From NCBI GenBank assembly GCA_017533485.1, contig JAFXIC010000012.1, positions 1 to 41,080 on the forward strand: a stretch of 41,080 bases of DNA, read 5' to 3'. This DNA is from Oscillospiraceae bacterium (lineage in GTDB: Bacteria; Bacillota; Clostridia; Oscillospirales; Ruminococcaceae). Both the position numbers and the translations under genes were made by a program. This document shows positions 16,801 to 29,730 of this stretch, in pieces. The notes beneath the pieces were generated by a model. That model did no database searches. It saw nothing but the letters and a program-made list of their open reading frames with translations, and was not told where the DNA came from. Each line of letters opens with the position of its first letter. Position 1 is the stretch's first letter.

Positions 16801-19461
16801 ATGAACAGATCTATCTGCACCAAAAGCCTGCTTTCGGTGATGACGGCGCTGACGCTGCTTGCGTCATCCGCACCCGTCCTGACCGATGCCGGCGCCAGAG
16901 TCAATGCGGCTTCCGCTTCCATCGAGGATTCGATGGACTGGGACACCCTCCGCATCGGCGGCGGCGGTTTTGTTTCGGGTATCGTCACCGGACAAAACGA
17001 AATGTACCTGCGTACCGATGTCGGCGGCGCATATAAGTACAACTATGAAACCAAGGAATGGGAACAGCTCTTTGGGTTCCTGAATGATGCCGACCGCGGA
17101 CTGCTGAGCGTCAGCGGCATCGCCATCGACCCGACTGATGATGACACCGTATATTTCCTCTGCGGCTGCGCCTACTTCTCCGATGCGCGAACTGTCATCT
17201 TCAAAACAACTGACGGCGGAAAAACCTTCACCGAAACCGATATTACCGACCTCATTCAGGTACATGGCAACGGCGACGGCAGAGAATGCAGCGAACCGAT
17301 CGCGGTCGATCCCGATCACCCCGACACAATCTATGCCGGCGGCGATGTCACAGCCGGTGAATCCTGTCTCATCAAATCCACTGACGGCGGAAAAACATGG
17401 AATCCGGTCAAGGGATATGACGACCTCGGCTTCTACAAGCATGAAATTCTCTGGCCGTTCTGGACAAACCATAAGGTCAGAGCCTGCACGACAGACGGCG
17501 AGCAGTCCTATCCCCAGCAAAACGGTGTCGCAACCATCAAAATTCTTGACGGAAAGGTGTATGTCGGAACTTCGATCAACGGTGCGGCGAATATTCATGT
17601 CGCAAGCGTCAAGGACGATAAATTCTCTGTCCTCTCGAAGGACCTTCCGACCGCAAACTACCCCGTTACCATTTCCGACGACGGAAACGGCAATCTCTTT
17701 ATTACCTATATCGCAGGGCTTGCATTCAGCGGAACTGCCGGCGGTGCCTATAAGTACAACATCGCCTCCGGAACAGTGACCGATATCTCTCCCTGCGGCA
17801 ATGCCATCGGCATGATTACCGCAGACCCCGAAAATCCCGATAAGCTCTTTGCAAGAACCTGCGGACTCTGGTCTGACCAGTGGTGGGAGAAGGAATGGAC
17901 CGATACCAGCATCGCCTGGGGCGACTACTTCTTCCGTTCCACGGACGGCGGTGAAAGCTGGGAGAATATTACCCCCGGAAAACAGGTCGGTCAGTACACC
18001 GATGACTGTTATTTCGTCGCGAACCCCCTCAATGACGGCGGCTACGAATGGATCTACGGAAAGGCAATCCACTGGGGCAGCGGCATCCTCATCGACCCGC
18101 GGGATACCGACCGCATTCTCATGACCTCCGGAAACGGCGTATTCGCCTGTGACAATGCATGGGACGAGAGAGAGCTGGAATACTACTTCGCACCCACCGG
18201 CGTTGAAGAAGTGGTTGCCCTCGACATGGTTTCCGTACCCGGCGGCCCGGCTTATTCCGTGATCGGCGACTATGACGGCTTTATCCATGTCGATAACGAT
18301 TCCATTCCCCAGCAGTATACCCCCAACATGGGTTCGACCTCCGCAATCGCCTACTGTCCGTCTTCGCCCAATGTGATGGCAAGACTCGCAAAAGATTCCG
18401 CAAAAGGCTATTACAGCACCGACAGCGGTCAGACATGGAAAGAAGCAACCTTCCCCGCACAGGACGGAAAGCTCTCCATTACAGAGCTGTCCGAAGGAAA
18501 ATACCGTATCCTCGCTTCCAGCGGCAGCGGAAGTGCCGTATCCTATTCCGATGATTTCGGCGCGACATGGAAAACAGCGTCAGGCATCAAGGGCACCAAA
18601 ACCACCTACACGATGGTAGACCCCAAGAACCCTGCAATCGTCTATGCCTCCGGTATCAACTACAACGAATACTGGTCCTCCAACCCCAACCTCGAAGAAC
18701 CGTCCTTTGAGGATGACCATTACTCCTTCTACATCAGCGATGACTACGGCGCAACCTTTACGGAATCCCAGATCTGCCGCTACGATATGTGTGACCATAC
18801 GGGCGACCTCGCGTACCTGAAGGAGGATACGATCGCGATGGCAGCAGGCTGGTACGGCCTTTATATCATCACGGACGGCGGAACTACACAGACCAAAACT
18901 GATGTCTTCTACGCGAAAACAATCGGCTACGGCGCACCGAAAGAAAAAGGCGGCGTCAATACGCTCTTTATGTACGGAAAACCGTCCGAGAATGACCCCG
19001 AGGGTATCTATCGTTCCACTGACAGCGGTGCAACATGGGTCTGCATCAACACGAAAAACCTCTACGGCGGTACCGGAAACGGTAATTTCTTAGTCGGTGA
19101 CATGAATACATTCGGTAAGGTCTATATGTCCACCGTCGGCTGCGGTATTGTTGTCGGCGAGCTCAGCGGTACCACCCCGCCCTCCGGTTCGACTGTCACC
19201 ACAACCACGACTACGACAACCGCTACTACCACGAAAAACGGAGAGGTCATATACGGTGACGCCAACTGTGACGAAACCGTTGATATTTCCGACGTCATCC
19301 TCATTTCCCGTGTTGCAGCCGAGGATAAAGCAGTCTCCCTCACCACTGCCGGTAAATTCAATTCGGATGTAGACGGAAACACGAAGATTACTTCCGCGGA
19401 TGCGACAAAGATTCTCCGCTTTATCGCAAAGCTCATCAAAGAAGAAGAACTTGCACCATAA
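16801..19461 (+). CDS. GH74 xyloglucanase (endo-xyloglucan hydrolase) with C-terminal type I dockerin
   Basis: This 886-residue protein is expected to be secreted and docked into a cellulosome, where it cuts xyloglucan. A signal peptide occupies about residues 1-37. Two seven-bladed propeller domains, typical of GH74, follow to about residue 790, with many SxDGGxTW-type blade repeats (for example TDGGKTF, TDGGKTW, TDGGESW, TDSGATW). The likely catalytic aspartates are D73 in RTDVGGAY and D490 in VIGDYDGF, matching the TDVGGAY and GDIGGF sites of known GH74 enzymes. A Thr-rich linker (about 795-810) leads to a dockerin (about 815-886) with calcium loops DANCDETVDISD and DVDGNTKITSAD. The ribosome-binding site is the unusual AGGGGG at 16786-16791. 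The gene is monocistronic, with its own promoter, UTR palindrome and terminator. Confidence 0.95.
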   Translation: MNRSICTKSLLSVMTALTLLASSAPVLTDAGARVNAASASIEDSMDWDTLRIGGGGFVSGIVTGQNEMYLRTDVGGAYKYNYETKEWEQLFGFLNDADRGLLSVSGIAIDPTDDDTVYFLCGCAYFSDARTVIFKTTDGGKTFTETDITDLIQVHGNGDGRECSEPIAVDPDHPDTIYAGGDVTAGESCLIKSTDGGKTWNPVKGYDDLGFYKHEILWPFWTNHKVRACTTDGEQSYPQQNGVATIKILDGKVYVGTSINGAANIHVASVKDDKFSVLSKDLPTANYPVTISDDGNGNLFITYIAGLAFSGTAGGAYKYNIASGTVTDISPCGNAIGMITADPENPDKLFARTCGLWSDQWWEKEWTDTSIAWGDYFFRSTDGGESWENITPGKQVGQYTDDCYFVANPLNDGGYEWIYGKAIHWGSGILIDPRDTDRILMTSGNGVFACDNAWDERELEYYFAPTGVEEVVALDMVSVPGGPAYSVIGDYDGFIHVDNDSIPQQYTPNMGSTSAIAYCPSSPNVMARLAKDSAKGYYSTDSGQTWKEATFPAQDGKLSITELSEGKYRILASSGSGSAVSYSDDFGATWKTASGIKGTKTTYTMVDPKNPAIVYASGINYNEYWSSNPNLEEPSFEDDHYSFYISDDYGATFTESQICRYDMCDHTGDLAYLKEDTIAMAAGWYGLYIITDGGTTQTKTDVFYAKTIGYGAPKEKGGVNTLFMYGKPSENDPEGIYRSTDSGATWVCINTKNLYGGTGNGNFLVGDMNTFGKVYMSTVGCGIVVGELSGTTPPSGSTVTTTTTTTTATTTKNGEVIYGDANCDETVDISDVILISRVAAEDKAVSLTTAGKFNSDVDGNTKITSADATKILRFIAKLIKEEELAP

Positions 19462-20588: not shown

Positions 20589-21227
20589 ATGTTTCAATAC
20601 GAAAAAACACTGCAATATCCTGTAAAAATCAGCCGTCCCAATGCCAAACTCGCAAAGATGATTATCTCCCAGCTCGGCGGCCCGGATGGTGAACTCGGCG
20701 CATCCATGCGCTATCTCAACCAGCGGTATACGATGCCGCTCCGCGAACTTCAGGGACTTCTGACTGACATTGGAACCGAAGAACTTTCCCATATGGAGAT
20801 GGTTTCCGCACTCGTCTATCAGCTGACAAAGGGGCTGACGCCCGAACAGCTCGAAGCACAGGGCTTTGCGGATTATTTTATCGACCATACCACCGGTATC
20901 TATCCCGTTTCTGCATCCGGCGTTCCGTTTTCTGTGGAAACGCTCCAGTCCACCGGCGATGCCATTACCGACCTCAGCGAAGATATGGGTGCGGAACAGA
21001 AAGCACGTACCACCTATGATAATATCCTTCGACTCGCGGATGATCCCGATGTACGCGATGTCATCCGCTTCCTGCGCGAGCGCGAAATCGTCCACTTCCA
21101 GCGTTTCGGCGAAGGACTGCGGATGATTCAGGATAAACTCTCCGAACATTCCCCCTATCCCAACAATCCTTATGCCTTCAACACCTCGTTCGATAAATCC
21201 TGCTTCAAGCGTGCAATGGGACGATAG
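20589..21227 (+). CDS. cotJC: CotJC, manganese-catalase-family spore coat protein
   Basis: This 212-residue protein belongs to the dimanganese (ferritin-like) catalase family, which decomposes hydrogen peroxide; the CotJC members sit in the spore coat. The dimetal ligands appear intact by pattern: E35, E65, H68 (EELSHMEM), E136 (MGAEQKAR) and H169 (IVHFQRFGEG). It lacks the long C-terminal extension of larger catalases, as CotJC does. The ATG follows AAGGAGG. It is last in the cotJABC operon, with a terminator about 120 bases on. Sporulation-stage expression is inferred from the family. Confidence 0.94.
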   Translation: MFQYEKTLQYPVKISRPNAKLAKMIISQLGGPDGELGASMRYLNQRYTMPLRELQGLLTDIGTEELSHMEMVSALVYQLTKGLTPEQLEAQGFADYFIDHTTGIYPVSASGVPFSVETLQSTGDAITDLSEDMGAEQKARTTYDNILRLADDPDVRDVIRFLREREIVHFQRFGEGLRMIQDKLSEHSPYPNNPYAFNTSFDKSCFKRAMGR

Positions 21228-21460: not shown

Positions 21461-23941
21461 TTATTTCACAAAACCGGAAATTCCCAGATTCATACCCTTC
21501 ATGCCATTGCTGATAATCTGTGCGACAGCCTTCGCGCCGGTTTCCGTGAAATGTGTAAAGTCCGTACCGCCCTGTGTGGTCGAACCCATATAATAACTAT
21601 AAGCAGTCTGATAGCTGATATTATTGAAGCTGGACGCCATTGCCGAGCCCAGATCAAAATACGGCACCTGATACTTATTCGAAAGCTGCTTGCAGGCAGT
21701 GTCGATATTCCGATAGCCTGCGGAGAAAGGCTGCTGGGCATTCTTAATCGAAAGCGGCGGACTCATCAGAATCGGCGTCGCACCCTTTGCGATGGCACCC
21801 TCAATATAGAACTGCATATAATACTCAAACGATCCGACCGTGGGATTATCTACGAAGCCGCAGCACGGTGCATAGCGTTCTTCCTTATTGTACGCGCCGT
21901 CATTGATGCCAAAGCAGACAATCAGATAATCTCCCTCACGGATATTATCCAGAATCGTCTGGAGTCTGCCGTTATCATAAAAGCTCTTGGAGCTTCTGCC
22001 GGCAATCGAATGGTTGCTGACGGTTACGGCATCCGTAAAATAATCGCCGAGATAATAGCCCCAGCCCTGCTGCGGTGCATAGCTGGCATTATAGCTCTGG
22101 GCGGTGGAATCGCTGGCGATATAAATCACAGGATTGCTGCTTGTAATCGGATCCTGCGTATTGCCGGTGCCGTAGACTTCGGCAATCGGTTCATCGGTCA
22201 GGCTGAGCGTAATATAATCGAGATTCGGGCCGCCCTCGTTCATATGCGACTGGAATTTGATTGTATTCTGCCCCGCCTTCAGCGGAATGACCAGTCCGAA
22301 GATCTCCCATGCCGTCCATGCACCGGTGCTGCGGAAATCCTGTAACCACTGTCTGTCATCCCCGCCGACGGAAATCATCATCTGGCGGTTATTTGCCGAG
22401 CCATTCGCGTTGCGGACAGCCATATAGTAATTTCCGTCCTGCGGTACATTCACCGTAAAGGTCACATTGCTGGTGGAGGTATTTTCGAGATTGAGGTATG
22501 CCTCGCCGAGAAATCCGGCGTTCACGGTTTCACGGATGCCCTCGGAAAAGGAAGCGTCGATTGCGAAATAGCGTTCCTGTACGGGGAATACGGCAATCTC
22601 ACCGATCAGGTAACGCACCATCAGCACCATATCCGCCATCGAAACATTGGTATCCTCATTGATATCGGCAGCCTTTTGTGCAGCCGGATCGGAGAAACCG
22701 CTGAGGAGTCCGCGCTTTGCGAGCGTCAGGTCGGTCGCTGTCAGCCTTCCGTCATCATTCAGGTCACCCTTTGCATAGACCTTTTCCGGTTCGGGAGGCT
22801 GGTAGCCGGCGTCAAAATCAATATTCTCCGCAACCAGCTTTGCCAGTACGGTTGCGCCGGCACGATTCGGATGGAGTCCGTCACCGCTCATATAGAGATT
22901 GGTGGTCGCATCCGCGCCGATTCCCATGCAATGATTCTGCCAGAGATTAAAAAGATCGAGCACCTCAATGCCGAGGGCTGCGCCGATCGCATCGAGTGCG
23001 CCGCCGAACCAGCGTCCGGTCAGCAGCGGATTTCTCGAACAGTCACCGTTTCTGCCTTGCTGCTTCACGAGAATGACGCGCATTCCTTTTGCCATTGCAC
23101 GCTTTGCCATATCGGTTACGACTTCCGTATATTCCGCTTCATTCGAATAGTTCGTATCATTGATGCCGATCGAGATAAAGTAGATATCCCCCTCATGTCC
23201 GAAGGTTTCGATGGGGGTAAACTGACCGGCATTCACAAAGCCCTTTGCATACTGACCGCTGGCGGCAAGATTCCGGACCTGCCACTTGGTTGTATCAATG
23301 ACCGAGGGAAGCATCTGACCCCAGCCGGCTTGTGCGGACGAATCGAGCGGATAGTAGTTGCAGACGGTAGAATCGCCGCAGATCCATACCGTCGGATTGG
23401 TGACGGGATTATCGGAAATTTTCTTGATTTCGAGGGCGGAAAGCGTAAACGCATAGCCTGCCTTTCCCTCACAGCAGCAGAGATTGAGCTGGCCGTCGGT
23501 CACAGGAATCTGGAAGGTATCATAGGCATTGTTTCCGGTGAGATTGATCAGCTGGAGCATTCCCTCCGCCGCCACGCTGGTACGTGTCGTATTTCCCAGC
23601 CAGACAGAAACCTGATAAAGACCGTTGGGAACGTCCGCACAGAATGCTGCGGTTCCGGTATTGGTCGAATTGGTAAACTGCACCGCGTCACTGAGCGCAC
23701 CCCAGCCGGACGCGGAAACATCCTTGACGCTGCAATTGCTGCTGAAGCCGTAGCCGCTGCCGCTGTTATATTTCACTGAAGCAGAAACACCGGTATAGCC
23801 GCCTTCGGTACCGCCGCCGCCGAAATCAAATTTCCAGTAATCCGATGCGGCATTCGCCTTCAGCGGCACCACCGGCAGCATTGCGGCTGCGAGTGCAAGA
23901 CCTGCTGCAAAGCAGGAAAGCTTTTTTACGATTCGTTTCAT
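21461..23941 (-). CDS. Two-headed CE12-type (rhamnogalacturonan) acetylesterase with internal dockerin and carbohydrate-binding module
   Basis: This 826-residue secreted protein is predicted to remove acetyl groups from pectin-type polysaccharide. The order is: signal peptide (about 1-32); N-terminal beta domain of RGAE type (about 33-178); first SGNH hydrolase (about 183-375) with Ser191 in GDSTV, Asn261 in GIND, and Asp354/His357 in DGLHPN; dockerin (about 388-455) with loops DLNDDGRLTATD and DINEDTNVSMAD; CBM35/6-like beta-sandwich (about 455-583); second SGNH hydrolase (about 604-815) with Ser612 in ASDSTAQ, Asn680 in GIND, and Asp794/His797 in DFTHF. Both catalytic sets look complete. 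The ATG at 23941 is preferred over a TTG six codons upstream, because the signal peptide begins there and GGGGGA lies ten bases before it. That ribosome-binding site is complementary to the nearby small RNA. Substrate specificity is inferred. Confidence 0.93.
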   Translation of the reverse strand: MKRIVKKLSCFAAGLALAAAMLPVVPLKANAASDYWKFDFGGGGTEGGYTGVSASVKYNSGSGYGFSSNCSVKDVSASGWGALSDAVQFTNSTNTGTAAFCADVPNGLYQVSVWLGNTTRTSVAAEGMLQLINLTGNNAYDTFQIPVTDGQLNLCCCEGKAGYAFTLSALEIKKISDNPVTNPTVWICGDSTVCNYYPLDSSAQAGWGQMLPSVIDTTKWQVRNLAASGQYAKGFVNAGQFTPIETFGHEGDIYFISIGINDTNYSNEAEYTEVVTDMAKRAMAKGMRVILVKQQGRNGDCSRNPLLTGRWFGGALDAIGAALGIEVLDLFNLWQNHCMGIGADATTNLYMSGDGLHPNRAGATVLAKLVAENIDFDAGYQPPEPEKVYAKGDLNDDGRLTATDLTLAKRGLLSGFSDPAAQKAADINEDTNVSMADMVLMVRYLIGEIAVFPVQERYFAIDASFSEGIRETVNAGFLGEAYLNLENTSTSNVTFTVNVPQDGNYYMAVRNANGSANNRQMMISVGGDDRQWLQDFRSTGAWTAWEIFGLVIPLKAGQNTIKFQSHMNEGGPNLDYITLSLTDEPIAEVYGTGNTQDPITSSNPVIYIASDSTAQSYNASYAPQQGWGYYLGDYFTDAVTVSNHSIAGRSSKSFYDNGRLQTILDNIREGDYLIVCFGINDGAYNKEERYAPCCGFVDNPTVGSFEYYMQFYIEGAIAKGATPILMSPPLSIKNAQQPFSAGYRNIDTACKQLSNKYQVPYFDLGSAMASSFNNISYQTAYSYYMGSTTQGGTDFTHFTETGAKAVAQIISNGMKGMNLGISGFVK

Positions 23942-23951
23942 ATGACAGAGT

Positions 23952-23965
23952 TCCCCCAATTCATT
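23952..23965 (-). promoter_or_regulatory. Esterase ribosome-binding site, perfect 14-nt complement of the first small RNA
   Basis: On the minus strand the leader reads AATGAATTGGGGGA, containing the G-rich ribosome-binding site. The same plus-strand 14-mer TCCCCCAATTCATT occurs at 24191-24204 in the C-rich segment of the small-RNA unit, so the two transcripts can pair without mismatch. Confidence 0.7.
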
Positions 23966-23979
23966 TTCTTTGTTTTCTC

Positions 23980-24008
23980 ATCATAGCACACCGCATTTCC
24001 AAAGTCAA
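23980..24008 (-). promoter_or_regulatory. Sigma-A promoter of the dockerin esterase gene
   Basis: On the minus strand TTGACT (24003-24008), a 17-nt spacer and TATGAT (23980-23985). The start would be near 23973, giving a 5' UTR of only about 32 bases made largely of the AATGAATTGGGGGA target segment. Confidence 0.8.
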
Positions 24009-24129
24009 GAAAACCGATGCCGATTGACCGAATCGCACAAAAATATGCGACAATAATACAGCCCCCGCACGAATTTATTTTCGTTTACAGAAAACTTTCA
24101 TTATGTTCATAGAAAGTTTAAGAATCATT

Positions 24130-24160
24130 CAGTTTAACTTAAAAAATATGGATTATACTA
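24130..24160 (+). promoter_or_regulatory. Promoter of small-RNA unit 1
   Basis: The -10 TATACT (24154-24159) lies inside GGATTATACTA, with CAGTTTA 17 bases upstream in the -35 position. The same CAG(T/A)TTA-13 nt-GGATTAT layout, with identical spacing, precedes unit 2 at 24315-24345. The -35 region is part of the palindrome GTTTAACTTAAA (24132-24143), also found in the GH74 leader. The -35 is far from consensus, which suggests an activator or other control. Confidence 0.55.
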
Positions 24161-24164
24161 AAAT

Positions 24165-24266
24165 CAAGGTTTAGGAGACCTTGTTTCAAATCCCCCAATT
24201 CATTCATATATTTCTTTCATTTCGTGTGCTATGCAGAGAATCGACTGCATAGCCCTTACTTTTTTT
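24165..24266 (+). ncRNA. Candidate small regulatory RNA 1 (C-rich, anti-ribosome-binding-site)
   Basis: The unit of about 100 nt starts six bases after the -10 box with hairpin CAAGGT / ACCTTG (24165-24183). An unpaired pyrimidine-rich stretch with TCCCCCAATTCATT (24191-24204) follows. It ends with terminator stem GCTATGCAG / CTGCATAGC (24228-24253) and a seven-T run ending at 24266. No open reading frame of note lies inside. The layout of 5' hairpin, single-stranded anti-Shine-Dalgarno segment and terminator resembles known Gram-positive C-rich trans-acting RNAs such as the csRNA and Rsa types. The perfect match to the esterase leader suggests repression of translation. I do not recognise the RNA family. 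Confidence 0.65.
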
Positions 24267-24350
24267 GCCGTATTTTCGCGGCAAAAAAATTATTTCAAAA
24301 AACTTTGGAAATTTCAGATTATTTTAATCTTTCGGGATTATGATATAAGT

Positions 24351-24470
24351 GGTTAAGGTGAACGCCTAATAACCGTAATTTTCAAACCCCATTTTCCCAA
24401 TTCTTATTTCCCTATTCCATCTGAGATTTTCTCAACTCGGGCTATGCGCTTTGCATGGCCTTATTTTTTT
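24351..24470 (+). ncRNA. Candidate small regulatory RNA 2, paralogue of unit 1
   Basis: The unit of about 120 nt starts seven bases after TATGAT (24339-24344) with hairpin GGTTAAGG / CCTAATAACC (24351-24374, two-base bulge). It carries a C-rich segment beginning TTTCAAACCCCATTTTCCCA (24381-24400) and ends in terminator stem GGCTATGC / GCATGGCC (24440-24460) plus TTATTTTTTT. Promoter box, 5' hairpin, TTTCAAA(T)CCCC block, CCCAATTC and the terminator core (GCTATGC, GCAT) all parallel unit 1, so the two look like an old tandem duplication. Complementarity to the esterase leader is only 8 nt (CCCAATTC), so its main target may be elsewhere. Confidence 0.6.
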
Positions 24471-24544
24471 GTGTTTTTCTACGAAATCTACAAAAGAAAC
24501 TCATGCGCGGCAGAAAAATTTTTCCTTGAATTCGCACAATCCTC

Positions 24545-24639: not shown

Positions 24640-25863
24640 ATGGCAGGTCTGAACAAGGTTTCTGTAGACGATTTACAGGCAAAAGGCAAGAAGATTCTTG
24701 TCCGCTGCGATTTCAATGTCCCCATGAAAGAGGGAAAGATTACCAACGATAACCGTATTACTGCGGCACTCCCCACCATCAAGAAGCTTCTCTCCGAAGG
24801 CGGTAAGGTTGTGCTCTGCTCCCACCTCGGCAAGCCGAAGAACGGCCCGGAGGCTGCTTTCTCCCTCGCACCTGTTGCAGAGCGTCTGGCTGAGCTGCTC
24901 CCCGATACAAAGGTAACATTCGCTGCTGACGATACTGTTGTCGGCGAAAACGCAAAGGCTGCTGTCGCTGCAATGAACGACGGCGATATCGTTCTCCTCG
25001 AAAACACCCGCTTCCGCGGTGCAGAGGAAACCAAGAACGGCGAAGCATTCTCCAAGGAACTCGCAGAGCTCGTTGACGGTCAGGCTTTCGTAATGGACGC
25101 GTTCGGCTCCGCACACAGAGCACACGCTTCTACTGCCGGCGTGACACAGTTCGTAAAGGAAACTGCTGTCGGCTACCTGATGCAGAAGGAAATCCAGTTC
25201 CTCGGCAATGCAGTCGAAGATCCGGTCCGCCCCTTCGTTGCAATCCTCGGCGGCGCAAAGGTTGCAGATAAGCTGAACGTCATCTCCAACCTCCTCGAAA
25301 AGTGCGATACCCTCATCATCGGCGGCGGTATGGCTTATACCTTCCTCAAGGCACAGGGCGGCGAAATCGGTACCTCCCTCGTTGACCTCGAAAAGCTCGA
25401 CTACTGCAAGGAAATGCTCGAAAAGGCAGAAAAGCTCGGCAAGAAGATCCTCCTTCCGGTCGATACCGCAACCGCTGCTGCATTCCCGAATCCGATCGAC
25501 GGACCGGTTGAAATCGAATATGTCGATTCCATGAAGATTCCGGCTGACAGAATGGGTCTTGATATCGGCCCGAAGTCTGCTGCACTCTTCGCTGAGGCTG
25601 CAAAGACCGCAAAGACTGTCGTATGGAACGGCCCGATGGGCGTATTCGAGAACCCGACCCTCAAGAAGGGTACGGTTGCTGTCTGCGAAGCACTCGCAGA
25701 GGCTGACGCAACCACCATCATCGGCGGCGGTGACTCCGCAACTGCTGCAATCCAGCTCGGTTTTGCAGATAAGATGAGCCACATCTCCACCGGCGGCGGC
25801 GCTTCCCTCGAATACCTCGAAGGTAAGGTTCTCCCCGGCGTTGCTGCAATCGCTGAGAAATAA
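24640..25863 (+). CDS. pgk: Phosphoglycerate kinase
   Basis: This 407-residue cytosolic glycolytic enzyme transfers phosphate from 1,3-bisphosphoglycerate to ADP. Family signatures are [17 protein letters not shown] near the N-terminus (about 19-35), [29 protein letters not shown], the hinge region NGPMGVFE and the nucleotide loop [10 protein letters not shown]. The length is slightly above the usual 395. GAAAGGATG precedes the ATG. It is the first gene of a five-gene operon with tpiA and gpmI; codon use is strongly biased, as expected for high expression. Confidence 0.98.
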
Positions 25864-25879
25864 TTCCAGATCGAATCAC

Positions 25880-25901
25880 GGGCGGATAGCAATATCCGCC
25901 C
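25880..25901 (+). other. GNRA-loop hairpin after pgk with adjacent direct repeat
   Basis: GGGCGGATA and TATCCGCCC form nine perfect pairs closed by a GCAA tetraloop, 16 bases after the pgk stop. There is no T-run. The 11-mer GCAATATCCGC (25889-25899) repeats at 25907-25917, so the left arm could pair alternatively with the second copy. It probably stabilises or processes the pgk mRNA end. Confidence 0.6.
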
Positions 25902-25950
25902 AAACTGCAATATCCGCATTCATCCCTGTCGGAAAGGAGAGATAAATAGT

Positions 25951-26853
25951 ATGGCACGGCTCTTTGCGTTATTCATTGCCGCTCTGATCTTCTTTATCAA
26001 AGTAATGTTGTCTGCGAAACGCAGCAACTCCATCACTGACGCCGAAATCCAAAGCCGCAGACTCCGCAATTACCAAAGGCAGGCACACCCCGAACTGGAT
26101 GACATCCGTATCCATCCGATGACCGTTGCCGCACTCCCGCGCACCGATATGGATGACCTGATTGATCACGCGGTCATGCCGTCCAAACAAACCATATCCC
26201 TCGAAACACATGGCCCGTCCGAGGAATTTCTCCGCTATTTCGAACAACACCATCCTTGTGCGGAAGGTGCGGATGCGATGACGATTATCGAGCTCCAGCT
26301 CGCCCTCCATCACTACCTTCCCGCAGAACAGAGCCTTCGGTCCATGTCGCCGCATCTCCTCGAACCCAATCTCCGGATCCGTTATGTCAATGCGGTGATG
26401 AAGCTCTATATCATGACCGGAAGAACCGAGTTTGCACTCGACTGTTTCACCGCATATCAGGGCTTCGCCGAGGAATATCTCCAGTCCGGCGGAAACGGCA
26501 TCCTCTCCTATTTCGATAATGCCGCTTCTGTGCTCGCGCTCGCCGGCGACTTCGAAGAGGCACAGCGATACTGTCAGGCGATGCGAACCTATATCGCACG
26601 CTTCCAGATTACCGATATGCAGTATCTCCTTCCCGATATCACGCATGTCAAGCTCCTCTTTCTTCAGAATGAGATGGACGCGGCGGAACAAGCATTTCAG
26701 GATGTCCGGTTCCGGATCGAAAACTTCCCCCGGTATGAACAGCCCTGGAACCAGCAATTCCTCCTCGACCTCCTCGACCAGACAAGACTCTTTGCACCCC
26801 CGACTGAATTTGAAGTCGGCGAGGACGGCGGAATGCCGACGCTCCAAATCTAA
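25951..26853 (+). CDS. Unrecognised membrane-anchored helical (TPR-like) protein in the pgk operon
   Basis: I do not recognise this 300-residue protein. An N-terminal hydrophobic segment (about residues 3-21, LFALFIAALIFFIKVMLSA) suggests a single membrane anchor, followed by a basic patch. From about residue 85 it is mostly helical, with alternating patterns typical of TPR-like repeats (for example LSYFDNAASVLALAGDFEEA and MDAAEQAFQDVRFRIENF). No catalytic motif is visible. AAAGGAGAG precedes the ATG. It lies between pgk and tpiA on the same strand, so it is expected to be co-expressed with glycolysis; the reason is unknown. Confidence 0.75.
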   Translation: MARLFALFIAALIFFIKVMLSAKRSNSITDAEIQSRRLRNYQRQAHPELDDIRIHPMTVAALPRTDMDDLIDHAVMPSKQTISLETHGPSEEFLRYFEQHHPCAEGADAMTIIELQLALHHYLPAEQSLRSMSPHLLEPNLRIRYVNAVMKLYIMTGRTEFALDCFTAYQGFAEEYLQSGGNGILSYFDNAASVLALAGDFEEAQRYCQAMRTYIARFQITDMQYLLPDITHVKLLFLQNEMDAAEQAFQDVRFRIENFPRYEQPWNQQFLLDLLDQTRLFAPPTEFEVGEDGGMPTLQI

Positions 26854-26925
26854 TCCATTCACGCAAGAAATTGCGACGAATCTATCTATCCCTATCCATA
26901 TTTTTATATTACGGAGGTTTTTCAA

Positions 26926-27702
26926 ATGAACAAGAATCTGAGAAAGGCAATCATTGCCGGAAACTGGAAAATGAACAAGACCCGTCCCGAGGCTAAGGCT
27001 CTCCTCGAAGAAATTAAGCCCCTTGTTGCAAATGCTGACGGCAAAATCGAAGTCATCGCCTGTGTACCGTTCACCAACCTCGAAACTGCAATCAATACCA
27101 CCGCAGGCTCGAATGTCAAGATCGGTGCGGAAAATGTCCACTTCGAAAAGTCCGGCGCATTCACCGGCGAAATTTCTGCGGATATGCTCACGGAACTCGG
27201 CGTGGAATATGTTGTCATCGGCCACAGCGAGCGCAGACAGTATTTCGGTGAAACCGATGAAACCGTCAATAAGCGCACAAAGGCAGCACTTGCTGCCGGT
27301 CTGAAGCCCATCGTCTGCGTCGGCGAGCTGAAGTGGGAACGCGAATGCGGCATCACCGAGGAAGTTGTCGGCAAACAGATTAAGCTTGACCTGTTTGATG
27401 TATCCGCTGATTATGTGAAGAAGACCGTCATCGCTTATGAGCCGGTCTGGGCAATCGGTACCGGTCTGACTGCAACACCGGAACAGGCTGAGGAAGTCTG
27501 TGCATTCATCCGCGCAACCCTCGCAAATATGTACGATCAGGCAACTGCGGACGCGGTTACCATCCAGTACGGCGGCTCTATGAATGCCGGCAATGCTGCT
27601 GAGCTGCTCGCAAAGCCGAACATCGACGGCGGTCTCATCGGCGGTGCTTCCCTGAAGGCTGCTGATTTCAACGTCATCGTTCAGGCTGCCGTCAATGGCT
27701 GA
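26926..27702 (+). CDS. tpiA: Triosephosphate isomerase
   Basis: This 258-residue TIM-barrel enzyme interconverts dihydroxyacetone phosphate and glyceraldehyde-3-phosphate. The catalytic residues are visible: Lys15 in AGNWKMNKT, His100 in VIGHSERRQ and Glu172 in AYEPVWAIGTG. The phosphate loops are YGGSMNAGNA and DGGLIGGASL. The length is normal. GGAGG precedes the ATG. Its last eight bases overlap the start of the following membrane-protein gene, implying translational coupling. Confidence 0.98.
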   Translation: MNKNLRKAIIAGNWKMNKTRPEAKALLEEIKPLVANADGKIEVIACVPFTNLETAINTTAGSNVKIGAENVHFEKSGAFTGEISADMLTELGVEYVVIGHSERRQYFGETDETVNKRTKAALAAGLKPIVCVGELKWERECGITEEVVGKQIKLDLFDVSADYVKKTVIAYEPVWAIGTGLTATPEQAEEVCAFIRATLANMYDQATADAVTIQYGGSMNAGNAAELLAKPNIDGGLIGGASLKAADFNVIVQAAVNG

Positions 27703-28216
27703 AACAGTTTCTAAAGCAGGTCCGGTGAAGGCTGTCTCCAATGTGCTGAACATCGGACTGCTGCTCGAAATTGTTTATACGGTATGTTATCTGGGGCTGT
27801 ACCTGATCCAGAAGCCGCTCCACTGGCTGCCGAACTTCCCGAAGGAAATGACAAAGCATATCTACCACAGTCCTGCGGTCATCCTTCTTACGATCAGCAG
27901 CGCCCTCTTATATACCGGAATCTGGTACTTCGCACAATATACCCTGAAATCCAACCGCAGAAACGGAATGGCACTGACCATTCTTGCCGCAGGCTTTCTG
28001 CTCTGCCGTCAGCTCGGCACCAATCTGATCACGAACCTGACTACAAGATGGATCGCCTTAAAGGAGGGGTTGGATATTCTTAGCTCCCATTCCACCGTCA
28101 CTGCATATCTCTCACCGCTCTCAATCTTTACCCTGTTCTCTCATACACTGCTGGCGGTCGGAACGGCACTCGTCTGGTACCGCGAAACATATCAATCAAA
28201 GGAGATTTCGTTATGA
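27695..28216 (+). CDS. Unrecognised small integral membrane protein coupled to tpiA and gpmI
   Basis: I do not recognise this 173-residue protein. Four hydrophobic segments are visible, at about residues 20-38, 60-80, 90-108 and 138-160, with short polar loops and no catalytic motif. The ATG lies inside the tpiA 3' end (8-base overlap). Its own stop overlaps the gpmI start by ATGA. It is thus translationally locked between two glycolytic enzymes. A DUF-type membrane protein is the most that can be said. Confidence 0.75.
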   Translation: MAETVSKAGPVKAVSNVLNIGLLLEIVYTVCYLGLYLIQKPLHWLPNFPKEMTKHIYHSPAVILLTISSALLYTGIWYFAQYTLKSNRRNGMALTILAAGFLLCRQLGTNLITNLTTRWIALKEGLDILSSHSTVTAYLSPLSIFTLFSHTLLAVGTALVWYRETYQSKEISL

Positions 28217-29730
28217 GTAAAGCACCTGTTGCTTTGTTAATTATGGACGGCTTCGGCATCAATACCGACAGCTACGGCAATGCCATCGCAGCCGCCAATA
28301 CCCCCAATCTCGATCATTATTTCAAGACCTGTCCCAACACCACCATCGGTGCGTCCGGCGAGGATGTCGGTCTGCCCGACGGTCAGATGGGCAACTCCGA
28401 GGTCGGCCACACCAATATCGGTGCCGGCAGAATCGTTTATCAGCAGCTCGTCAAAATCACAAAGTCCATTCGTGACGGCGTATTCTTCGAAAATCCTGCG
28501 CTCGTTGCTGCCATGGAAAACGCAAAGGCAAAAGACTCCGCACTCCACCTCATGGGACTTCTCTCCCCCGGCGGCGTCCATAGCCATATGGCGCATCTCT
28601 ACGGACTCTGCGAAATGGCAAAGCGGTTCGGACTGACGAAGGTTTATGTCCACGCATTCCTCGACGGACGCGATGTACCGCCCTCCTCTGCTGCGGAATA
28701 TATGGCGGAAGCTGTTGCCGAGATGCAGAAAATCGGCGTCGGCACAATCGCTACCGTGATGGGAAGATTCTATGCCATGGACCGCGATAATGCATGGGAC
28801 AGAGTCGAAAAGGCTTATGCCGCCATGGTTTACGGCGAAGGTGTCGAAGGCTGCTGCCCCGTTCAGGCAATCAAGGATTCCTATGCAAACGAAGTCACCG
28901 ATGAATTCATGCTCCCGACCGTCATCGACAAAAACGGACTGATTTCCGCGGACGACAGCGTTGTATTCTTCAACTTCCGCCCCGACCGTGCACGCCAGAT
29001 TACCCGTGCATTCGTCGATTCCGATTTCAAGGGCTTCGAGAGAAAGAACGGCTGCTTCCCGCTCCACTTCGTCTGTATGGCACAGTATGACGCAACTATG
29101 CCGAACGTATCCGTTGCATTCCCCCCCGAAGCACTGACCATGACACTCGGCGAATATCTCTCGAAATGCGGAAAGACTCAGCTCCGTATCGCCGAAACCC
29201 AGAAGTATGCCCACGTCACCTTCTTCTTCAATGGCGGCGAGGAGCGTCAGTTCGACGGCGAGGACAGAATCCTTATCAAGTCTCCGGATGTCGAAACCTT
29301 CGATATGAAGCCCGAAATGAGTGCATATGAAGTCACTGACGCGGTACTGAAAGAGATTGCCGCCGATAAATTCGATGTCATTATCCTCAACTATGCAAAC
29401 TGCGATATGGTCGGTCATACGGGTATTTTCGATGCAGCAAAGGCTGCTGTGGAAGCCGTAGACGAGTGTATCGGAAAGGTCACCGAGGCTGTCCTCGCAA
29501 AGGGCGGAAAGGTGATTATTACCGCGGACCACGGCAATGCAGATAAGATGTATGAGCCGGATGGCGCACCCTTTACCGCACATACCACATTCCCTGTACC
29601 GTTTATCATCTGCGGCGAGGACTGCAAGCTCCGTGAAACCGGTGTGCTCGCTGATATCGCGCCGACACTCCTGACGCTGCTCGGACTCCCGCAGCCGGAA
29701 GAAATGACCGGTACCTCGATGATTCTCTGA
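28213..29730 (+). CDS. gpmI: 2,3-bisphosphoglycerate-independent phosphoglycerate mutase
   Basis: This 505-residue manganese enzyme of the alkaline-phosphatase superfamily converts 3- to 2-phosphoglycerate. Asp12 lies in LIMDGFG and the phosphoserine nucleophile Ser62 in GQMGNSEVGHTN. Further metal and substrate sites are HAFLDGRDVPP, GRFYAMDRD, FFNFRPDRARQ, NYANCDMVGHTG and ITADHGNAD. The length is normal. AAAGGAG precedes the ATG, whose first bases overlap the preceding stop. It is the last gene of the operon. Mn dependence makes family members pH-sensitive during sporulation, which would fit a spore former. Confidence 0.98.
   Translation: MSKAPVALLIMDGFGINTDSYGNAIAAANTPNLDHYFKTCPNTTIGASGEDVGLPDGQMGNSEVGHTNIGAGRIVYQQLVKITKSIRDGVFFENPALVAAMENAKAKDSALHLMGLLSPGGVHSHMAHLYGLCEMAKRFGLTKVYVHAFLDGRDVPPSSAAEYMAEAVAEMQKIGVGTIATVMGRFYAMDRDNAWDRVEKAYAAMVYGEGVEGCCPVQAIKDSYANEVTDEFMLPTVIDKNGLISADDSVVFFNFRPDRARQITRAFVDSDFKGFERKNGCFPLHFVCMAQYDATMPNVSVAFPPEALTMTLGEYLSKCGKTQLRIAETQKYAHVTFFFNGGEERQFDGEDRILIKSPDVETFDMKPEMSAYEVTDAVLKEIAADKFDVIILNYANCDMVGHTGIFDAAKAAVEAVDECIGKVTEAVLAKGGKVIITADHGNADKMYEPDGAPFTAHTTFPVPFIICGEDCKLRETGVLADIAPTLLTLLGLPQPEEMTGTSMIL

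Follow-up and report, generated by a model that had tools for sequence, protein, structure and literature searches.

A candidate C-rich small RNA and G-rich ribosome-binding sites of dockerin genes in gut Ruminococcaceae

The locus and its predicted RNA genes

The stretch of DNA analyzed here (the window; 41,080 nt) is an entire contig of a 2.12-Mb assembly that is 88.3 percent complete. It carries a gene for a secreted esterase of 826 amino acids and, divergent from it, two predicted small RNA genes, termed RNA 1 and RNA 2 (Table 1). The Pfam domains of the esterase are an AGA-YXIM galactose-binding domain, a GDSL lipase, a type I dockerin, and a second GDSL lipase. A manganese catalase-family gene (20589 to 21227, plus strand; Pfam) adjoins the 3' end of the esterase gene, and genes for phosphoglycerate kinase, triosephosphate isomerase, and phosphoglycerate mutase (24640 to 29730, plus strand; Pfam) follow the two RNAs.

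Table 1. Annotated and predicted features of the window
Feature	Position	Strand	Basis or detail
Secreted dockerin protein, second candidate target	16801..19461	+	Pfam Sortilin-Vps10, BNR, Dockerin_1; GGGGG ribosome-binding site
Secreted esterase, 826 aa, likely target	21461..23941	-	Pfam
Complementary site in esterase leader (first copy of the 14-mer)	23952..23965	-	Contains ribosome-binding site GGGGGA (23957-23952)
Esterase promoter, sigma-70-like	23980..24008	-	Predicted; TTGACT-17-TATGAT
RNA 1 upstream region, putative OmpR-family binding array	24084..24144	+	Regulator inferred
RNA 1 -10 box	24154..24159	+	TATACT; TATA invariant in 28/28 alignment rows
RNA 1, predicted small RNA	24162..24266	+	Start inferred from -10 box, end at T run
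RNA 1 5' hairpin	24165..24183	+	CAAGGTTTAGGAGACCTTG; predicted fold
RNA 1 single-stranded segment, putatively targeting	24184..24224	+	Unpaired in predicted fold; CCCCC at 24192-24196
14-mer complementary to esterase leader (second copy)	24191..24204	+	Within RNA 1 single strand
RNA 1 Rho-independent terminator	24228..24266	+	Stem 24228-24253, then T run
RNA 2, second predicted small RNA	24339..24471	+	-10 box TATGAT, 5' stem, C-rich single strand, terminator 24439-24461 plus T run

RNA 1 has the appearance of a genuine small RNA and is conserved. It has a promoter and a Rho-independent terminator of its own, both predicted, and a conserved C run in its single strand; its fold, with a z-score of -2.51, is predicted to lead from a 5' hairpin through a single strand to the terminator hairpin. 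The region of the two RNAs is matched in all 30 genomes of the genus, and the RNA 1 part is matched in 28 of them, the other two (G018 and G023; 77 and 89 percent complete) having a match to RNA 2 only. All 28 copies can be aligned from the upstream repeats through the terminator. In this alignment, the second pair of the 5' hairpin is A-T in 21 rows, G-C in 4, and G-T in 3, so that pairing is kept despite the variation, and in 5 of the 10 terminator pairs both partners have changed with the pair preserved. The TTTCAAATCCCCCAA core of the single strand is nearly invariant and is directly followed by a second C run in most copies. An exact search with the core returned 23 stretches, all metagenome-assembled and entitled Ruminococcus sp. 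or Oscillospiraceae, Clostridia, or Clostridiales bacterium; the hosts given in their titles are sheep, horse, goat, roe deer, water buffalo, and pig.

RNA 1 does not have the layout of a cis-encoded antisense RNA, as about 220 nt separate its start from the esterase start codon, and it is directed away from that codon. Neither RNA matches an Rfam model at its gathering score. The best subthreshold scores were those of suhB, at RNA 2 (23.1 bits; cutoff, 41), and SNORA81 (18.5 bits; cutoff, 45). Homology to RoxS/RsaE, FsrA, or IsrR was likewise not found among the curated models, a library that may not contain a model for each of these.

Pairing with the esterase leader

The initial annotation had drawn attention to a 14-mer shared by RNA 1 and the region opposite the esterase leader, and its description of the site holds up. 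The sequence TCCCCCAATTCATT is present in exactly two copies (Table 1), and no further copy with up to two mismatches was found in the window. As had been claimed, the leader copy includes the ribosome-binding site, GGGGGA, which is a nonstandard Shine-Dalgarno sequence with its 3' end 10 nt from the ATG (start codon 23941 to 23939); the predicted promoter gives a leader of about 32 to 40 nt, in keeping with the proposed 5' untranslated region of about 32 nt; and the predicted fold places the second copy in a single strand of RNA 1. Cofolding the leader with RNA 1 gains 23.5 kcal/mol, while cofolding it with RNA 2 gains 12.2 kcal/mol.

The 14-mer match is real and lies beyond chance, as had also been argued. 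Among 471 genes called by a script, which rather than a gene caller also picked their starts, from 616 kb made up of stretches of the genome and not the whole of it, the esterase ranks first both by exact complementarity to the unpaired part of RNA 1 (14 nt; runner-up, 11 nt) and by duplex energy with RNA 1 (-27.7 kcal/mol). No other complement of at least 12 nt to the unpaired part was found in 1,231,744 strand positions. When the 471 genes are sorted by RNA 1 duplex energy alone, the top of the order does not consist mainly of GGGGG genes.

A divergent esterase lies within 900 nt of RNA 1 in 23 of the 27 loci found by motif, a count that omits G008, whose RNA 1 deviates from the search motif. 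All 23 of these esterase leaders have a GGGGG ribosome-binding site (positions -18 to -4), and in the relatives' loci, such a site is found in 23/23 esterase-type genes versus 6/236 others. As for the exceptions, one locus (G019) ends at a contig edge, another (G025) has an intervening gene with an esterase-like sequence farther away, and two (G010 and G011) have no esterase nearby. In the latter two (loci L047 and L038, respectively), a gene for a secreted protein with a GGGGG site, which resembles a GH9 glycosidase, is instead found near RNA 1, at distances of 0.2 and 1.2 kb.

The long pairing is conserved to a much smaller extent than the G run. By exact match, the fit between each RNA 1 and its own esterase leader ranges from 5 to 14 nt across species and is only 5 to 7 nt in several; when partners were swapped between species, 328 of 5000 permutations were as good as the cognate pairs by energy and 429 of 5000 by length. 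Counting helices through the G run with G-U pairs included, there are 14 pairs in the window species, 18 in its nearest relative (G020), and 6 to 10 in the others, and 144 of 5000 permutations of all 23 RNA/leader pairs reach the cognate mean. With the window species and G020 removed, cognate partners average 8.10 pairs and swapped partners 8.17, and 3655 of 5000 permutations are at least as good. Since cognate partners do no better than swapped ones outside these two species, the conserved contact is that of the C run with the G run. The helix of G020 is contiguous, contains two G-U pairs, and uses the second C run; its leader is nearly unchanged, so the RNA changed there without loss of pairing.

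The long match is confined to one small clade, made up of the window species and G020. Selection on the whole 14-mer throughout the genus was considered in three tests and rejected, applying at most to the window species and G020. The 14-mer is not a conserved unit across the genus, and at that scale its two copies have diverged independently, the outcome that the initial annotation had named as counting against its proposal. What stands of the proposal that RNA 1 faces the ribosome-binding site of the esterase is the apposition of the C run and GGGGG, in 23/23 neighboring genes, but not the 14-nt match.

These results also bear on the reading of the 14-mer repeat as a shared DNA element, be it a protein-binding site or a small duplication, with no RNA function. 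The two copies do share a strand, at a distance of 239 nt. However, the copy in RNA 1 sits within a conserved, transcript-like element, only the G run of the leader copy is conserved, and the similarity of the two ends with the 14-mer itself. We therefore assign a nearly negligible probability to this reading.

GGGGG sites across dockerin genes and genomes

In the window genome (G000), GGGGG followed by ATG at ribosome distance is rare, occurring at 173 places, versus 110 for a reversed control pattern. Dockerin genes were taken from Pfam places and processed, like all other genes, with a single script; some of the gene starts in these lists are doubtful, and each sample is part of the places of its genome (42/78 used in G000). 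On this basis, GGGGG sites precede 12/36 dockerin genes versus 15/613 others in G000 (P = 1.2e-9) and 7/35 versus 5/138 in G009 (P = 0.003). In G145, which belongs to another genus and has an RNA-1-like gene, the figures are 8/32 and 3/83 (P = 0.0015). The genomes with no detected copy of RNA 1 gave 0/26 dockerin genes versus 1/48 others (G135) and 1/14 dockerin genes (G186 and G328 together); ten G143 loci had no usable start and were left out. A motif-only count of dockerin genes, now superseded by the Pfam count, included fewer genes and gave weaker enrichment (2/10, P = 0.037; 4/20, P = 0.008; and, for G009, 5/29, P = 0.022), and an earlier count made under other rules gave 11/38, one of these with a doubtful TTG start. 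One secreted dockerin protein gene with a GGGGG site lies in the window itself (Table 1), and a gene for a similar protein, also with GGGGG, was seen in G024 (locus L054).

Pooling yields GGGGG sites at 27/103 dockerin genes in genomes with the RNA versus 1/40 in those without it (P = 0.0007), with the caveat that pooled genes are not independent. This contrast is confounded, because base composition differs between the two sets: G135 has 42.8 percent G+C and 1.4 GGGGG/CCCCC runs per 10 kb, versus 4.6 to 14.1 in the RNA-bearing genomes. The best match in density, G186, has GGGGG at 1/8 dockerin genes, which is indistinguishable from 27/103 (P = 0.68) but represents too few genes.

RNA 1 might be real and the GGGGG sites nevertheless reflect something else, such as a Shine-Dalgarno sequence tuned for secreted proteins, with the true targets of the RNA lying elsewhere. 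This would be in line with the one GGGGG-bearing dockerin gene of G186, which has no detected RNA-1-like gene, and with our first sample, in which the sites tracked signal-peptide-like genes generally (7/15 versus 73/456). In the uniform run, however, dockerin genes were enriched and other signal-peptide-like genes were not (7/230 in G000, 1/61 in G009, and 1/28 in G145), and G135 has none among its 26 dockerin genes. Furthermore, duplex energy with the genome's own RNA 1 separates dockerin genes from other genes with an AUC of 0.730 in G000 (34 versus 200 genes) and 0.738 in G009 (35 versus 155 genes), values matched by 0/100 shuffled RNA 1 segments in either genome. The shuffled segments themselves favor dockerin sites somewhat (mean AUC, 0.62 in G000 and 0.57 in G009), because those sites are G-rich, and this too fits an origin unrelated to the RNA. 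Weighing both sides, we regard such an origin as unlikely, and RNA 1 shows complementarity beyond chance to the ribosome-binding sites of several unlinked genes.

RNA-1-like genes also occur beyond the genus. A covariance model gave matches in 14 of 297 genomes of the family, and of the matches outside the genus six look real, combining the promoter TTTAAGATTATTTTAAG with a short hairpin, runs of the CCCCAATTCCCC type, and a terminator. No esterase was found beside these six copies, as judged from the listed gene starts; four other genera carry RNA-1-like genes with the same promoter type and other neighbors. A second model was run on 38 genomes of our own choosing, with real and chance matches told apart by eye, and gave matches in 15. 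By this reading, 12 of the 29 dockerin-rich genomes have a real copy (8 with an E value of 2.5e-6 or better and 4 weaker), 17 have no detected copy, and none was found in the nine genomes chosen as dockerin poor. Matches in G032, G134, G214, G318, G335, and G042 were judged by eye to be due to chance and were not counted; those in G318 and G335 look like tRNA genes.

Two further observations were made in these genomes. In G145 and G220 (loci L246 and G145:C1), a C-rich stretch with a terminator-like hairpin lies upstream of the RNA-1-like gene and is perhaps another small RNA. In two genomes of another genus (loci L252 and L253), TTTAAGATTATTTTAAG also stands before a gene that starts MAISTFKRQEIKFILDED, resembles those of VTC-domain proteins, and adjoins a dockerin gene.

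Targets other than the esterase are probable, because RNA-1-like genes in other genera are not beside that gene and 12/36 dockerin genes of the window genome have GGGGG sites. The initial identification of the esterase as the target is upheld insofar as it is a conserved neighbor with a GGGGG site, but that site is evidently not peculiar to it. A role for RNA 1 as a dedicated regulator of the adjacent esterase alone would explain the divergent neighbor in 23/27 loci and the 14 and 18 contiguous pairs of the window species and its nearest relative. Such a role accounts poorly for the loss of pairing beyond the G/C core across the genus, for the different neighbors in other genera, and for G010 and G011, where there is no esterase within 900 nt and yet a GGGGG secreted-protein gene is nearby. 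We consider it distinctly improbable.

Putative control, mode of action, and related systems

RNA 2, which has a fold z-score of -2.02 and for which relatives were found, is a probable partner of RNA 1. Several short runs of C lie within it (CCCC here, mostly CCCCC in relatives), and it adjoins RNA 1 in some species and is far apart from it in others. The two RNAs have the element next to the -10 box in common. Upstream of RNA 1, hexamers recur every 11 nt, at 24084 (TTTACA), 24095 (CTTTCA), 24106 (TTCATA), 24117 (TTTAAG), 24128 (TTCAGT), and 24139 (TTAAAA), and TTCAY repeats are conserved in the 28-row alignment. OmpR-family regulators use hexamers at an 11-nt spacing.

A pattern combining the repeats with TATA was found at six places in seven genomes; two of these are RNA 1, and four precede an operon encoding a response regulator and a kinase. 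In G009, a repeat-preceded operon of this kind lies 1.7 kb from RNA 1. The 11-nt TTCAY repeats ahead of an OmpR-type response regulator/kinase operon were seen at L152 (G000:C53:2635-2692), L149, L150, and L151, an arrangement that suggests autoregulation. Given the repeats before the operon and the promoter element shared with RNA 2, one may reasonably guess, but no more than guess, that both RNAs are driven by an autoregulated two-component system. RoxS is an example of a small RNA under two-component control. A reading of the repeats as PhoB (phosphate) sites was dropped, as the response regulator matches the MtrA, YycF, and PhoB models, all below the cutoff.

RNA 1 would work like FsrA, RoxS, and IsrR in kind but appears to represent a new family, as no homology to a described RNA family was found. 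In Staphylococcus aureus, conserved single-stranded C-rich regions of IsrR are reported to pair with G-rich ribosome-binding sites and lower translation (PMC9410917). As is proposed for RNA 1, IsrR is trans-acting, directs C-rich sequence at the G-rich ribosome-binding sites of a group of functionally related mRNAs, and has its own terminator; unlike RNA 1, it serves an iron-sparing regulon under Fur and has three C-rich regions (PMC9410917). No sequence relation between the two was seen, RNA 1 having no Rfam match at gathering score. FsrA of Bacillus subtilis also binds Shine-Dalgarno sequences through a C-rich motif but belongs to an iron regulon with protein chaperones (PMC9410917), again with no sequence relation seen. 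RoxS/RsaE of Bacillus and Staphylococcus likewise pairs C-rich regions with G-rich mRNA stretches in Firmicutes; it differs in its central metabolism targets and its four C-rich regions (PMC5419742), and no Rfam match was found here. Control of cellulosome composition at the RNA level is known for the cip-cel operon of Clostridium cellulolyticum, where cis stem-loops and selective processing act within one operon (PMC4423207, PMC10311766), rather than through a distinct small RNA with dispersed targets.

The RNA, its C run, and the GGGGG sites are conserved, and GGGGG is enriched before dockerin genes. From these patterns, we infer that RNA 1 is transcribed, pairs in the cell, and represses its targets. 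On balance, it is probably a trans-acting, C-rich small RNA that blocks translation of a regulon of dockerin enzymes. An RNA of about 100 nt would start at a regulated promoter and end at a terminator, both its own, and its conserved single-stranded CCCCC would pair with the GGGGG Shine-Dalgarno sequences of genes for secreted dockerin (cellulosome-type) enzymes, blocking ribosome binding. The divergent esterase would be the target most consistently beside it, with the pairing extended to 14 pairs in the window species and 18 in the nearest relative. RNA 2, with the same promoter type, would probably act on an overlapping set of genes.

Pairing could also raise expression, for instance by protecting 5' ends against nucleases, or the leaders could serve as RNA 1 sponges. 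Because the esterase leader is short, pairing would occur near its 5' end, and RoxS has been reported to use a C-rich region to protect one mRNA at its 5' end (PMC5419742). The conserved contact, however, is the ribosome-binding site itself, 10 nt from the start codon, and pairing there would be expected to impede the ribosome; we give little credence to a positive effect or a sponge.

Beyond blocking by RNA 1 itself, we tentatively suggest that a two-component system may drive two C-rich small RNAs that set the translation of a GGGGG-marked subset of dockerin genes in several cellulosome-type gut genera, a proposal for which the odds are somewhat against us. Our literature search, with subscription journals mostly outside its reach, turned up no report of cellulosome genes in Ruminococcus being under the control of a natural small RNA. 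If the proposed role is correct, small RNAs would join the known stem-loops among the controls of cellulosome composition, and a GGGGG at the ribosome-binding site would predict which of the fiber-degrading enzymes of these gut bacteria switch together.
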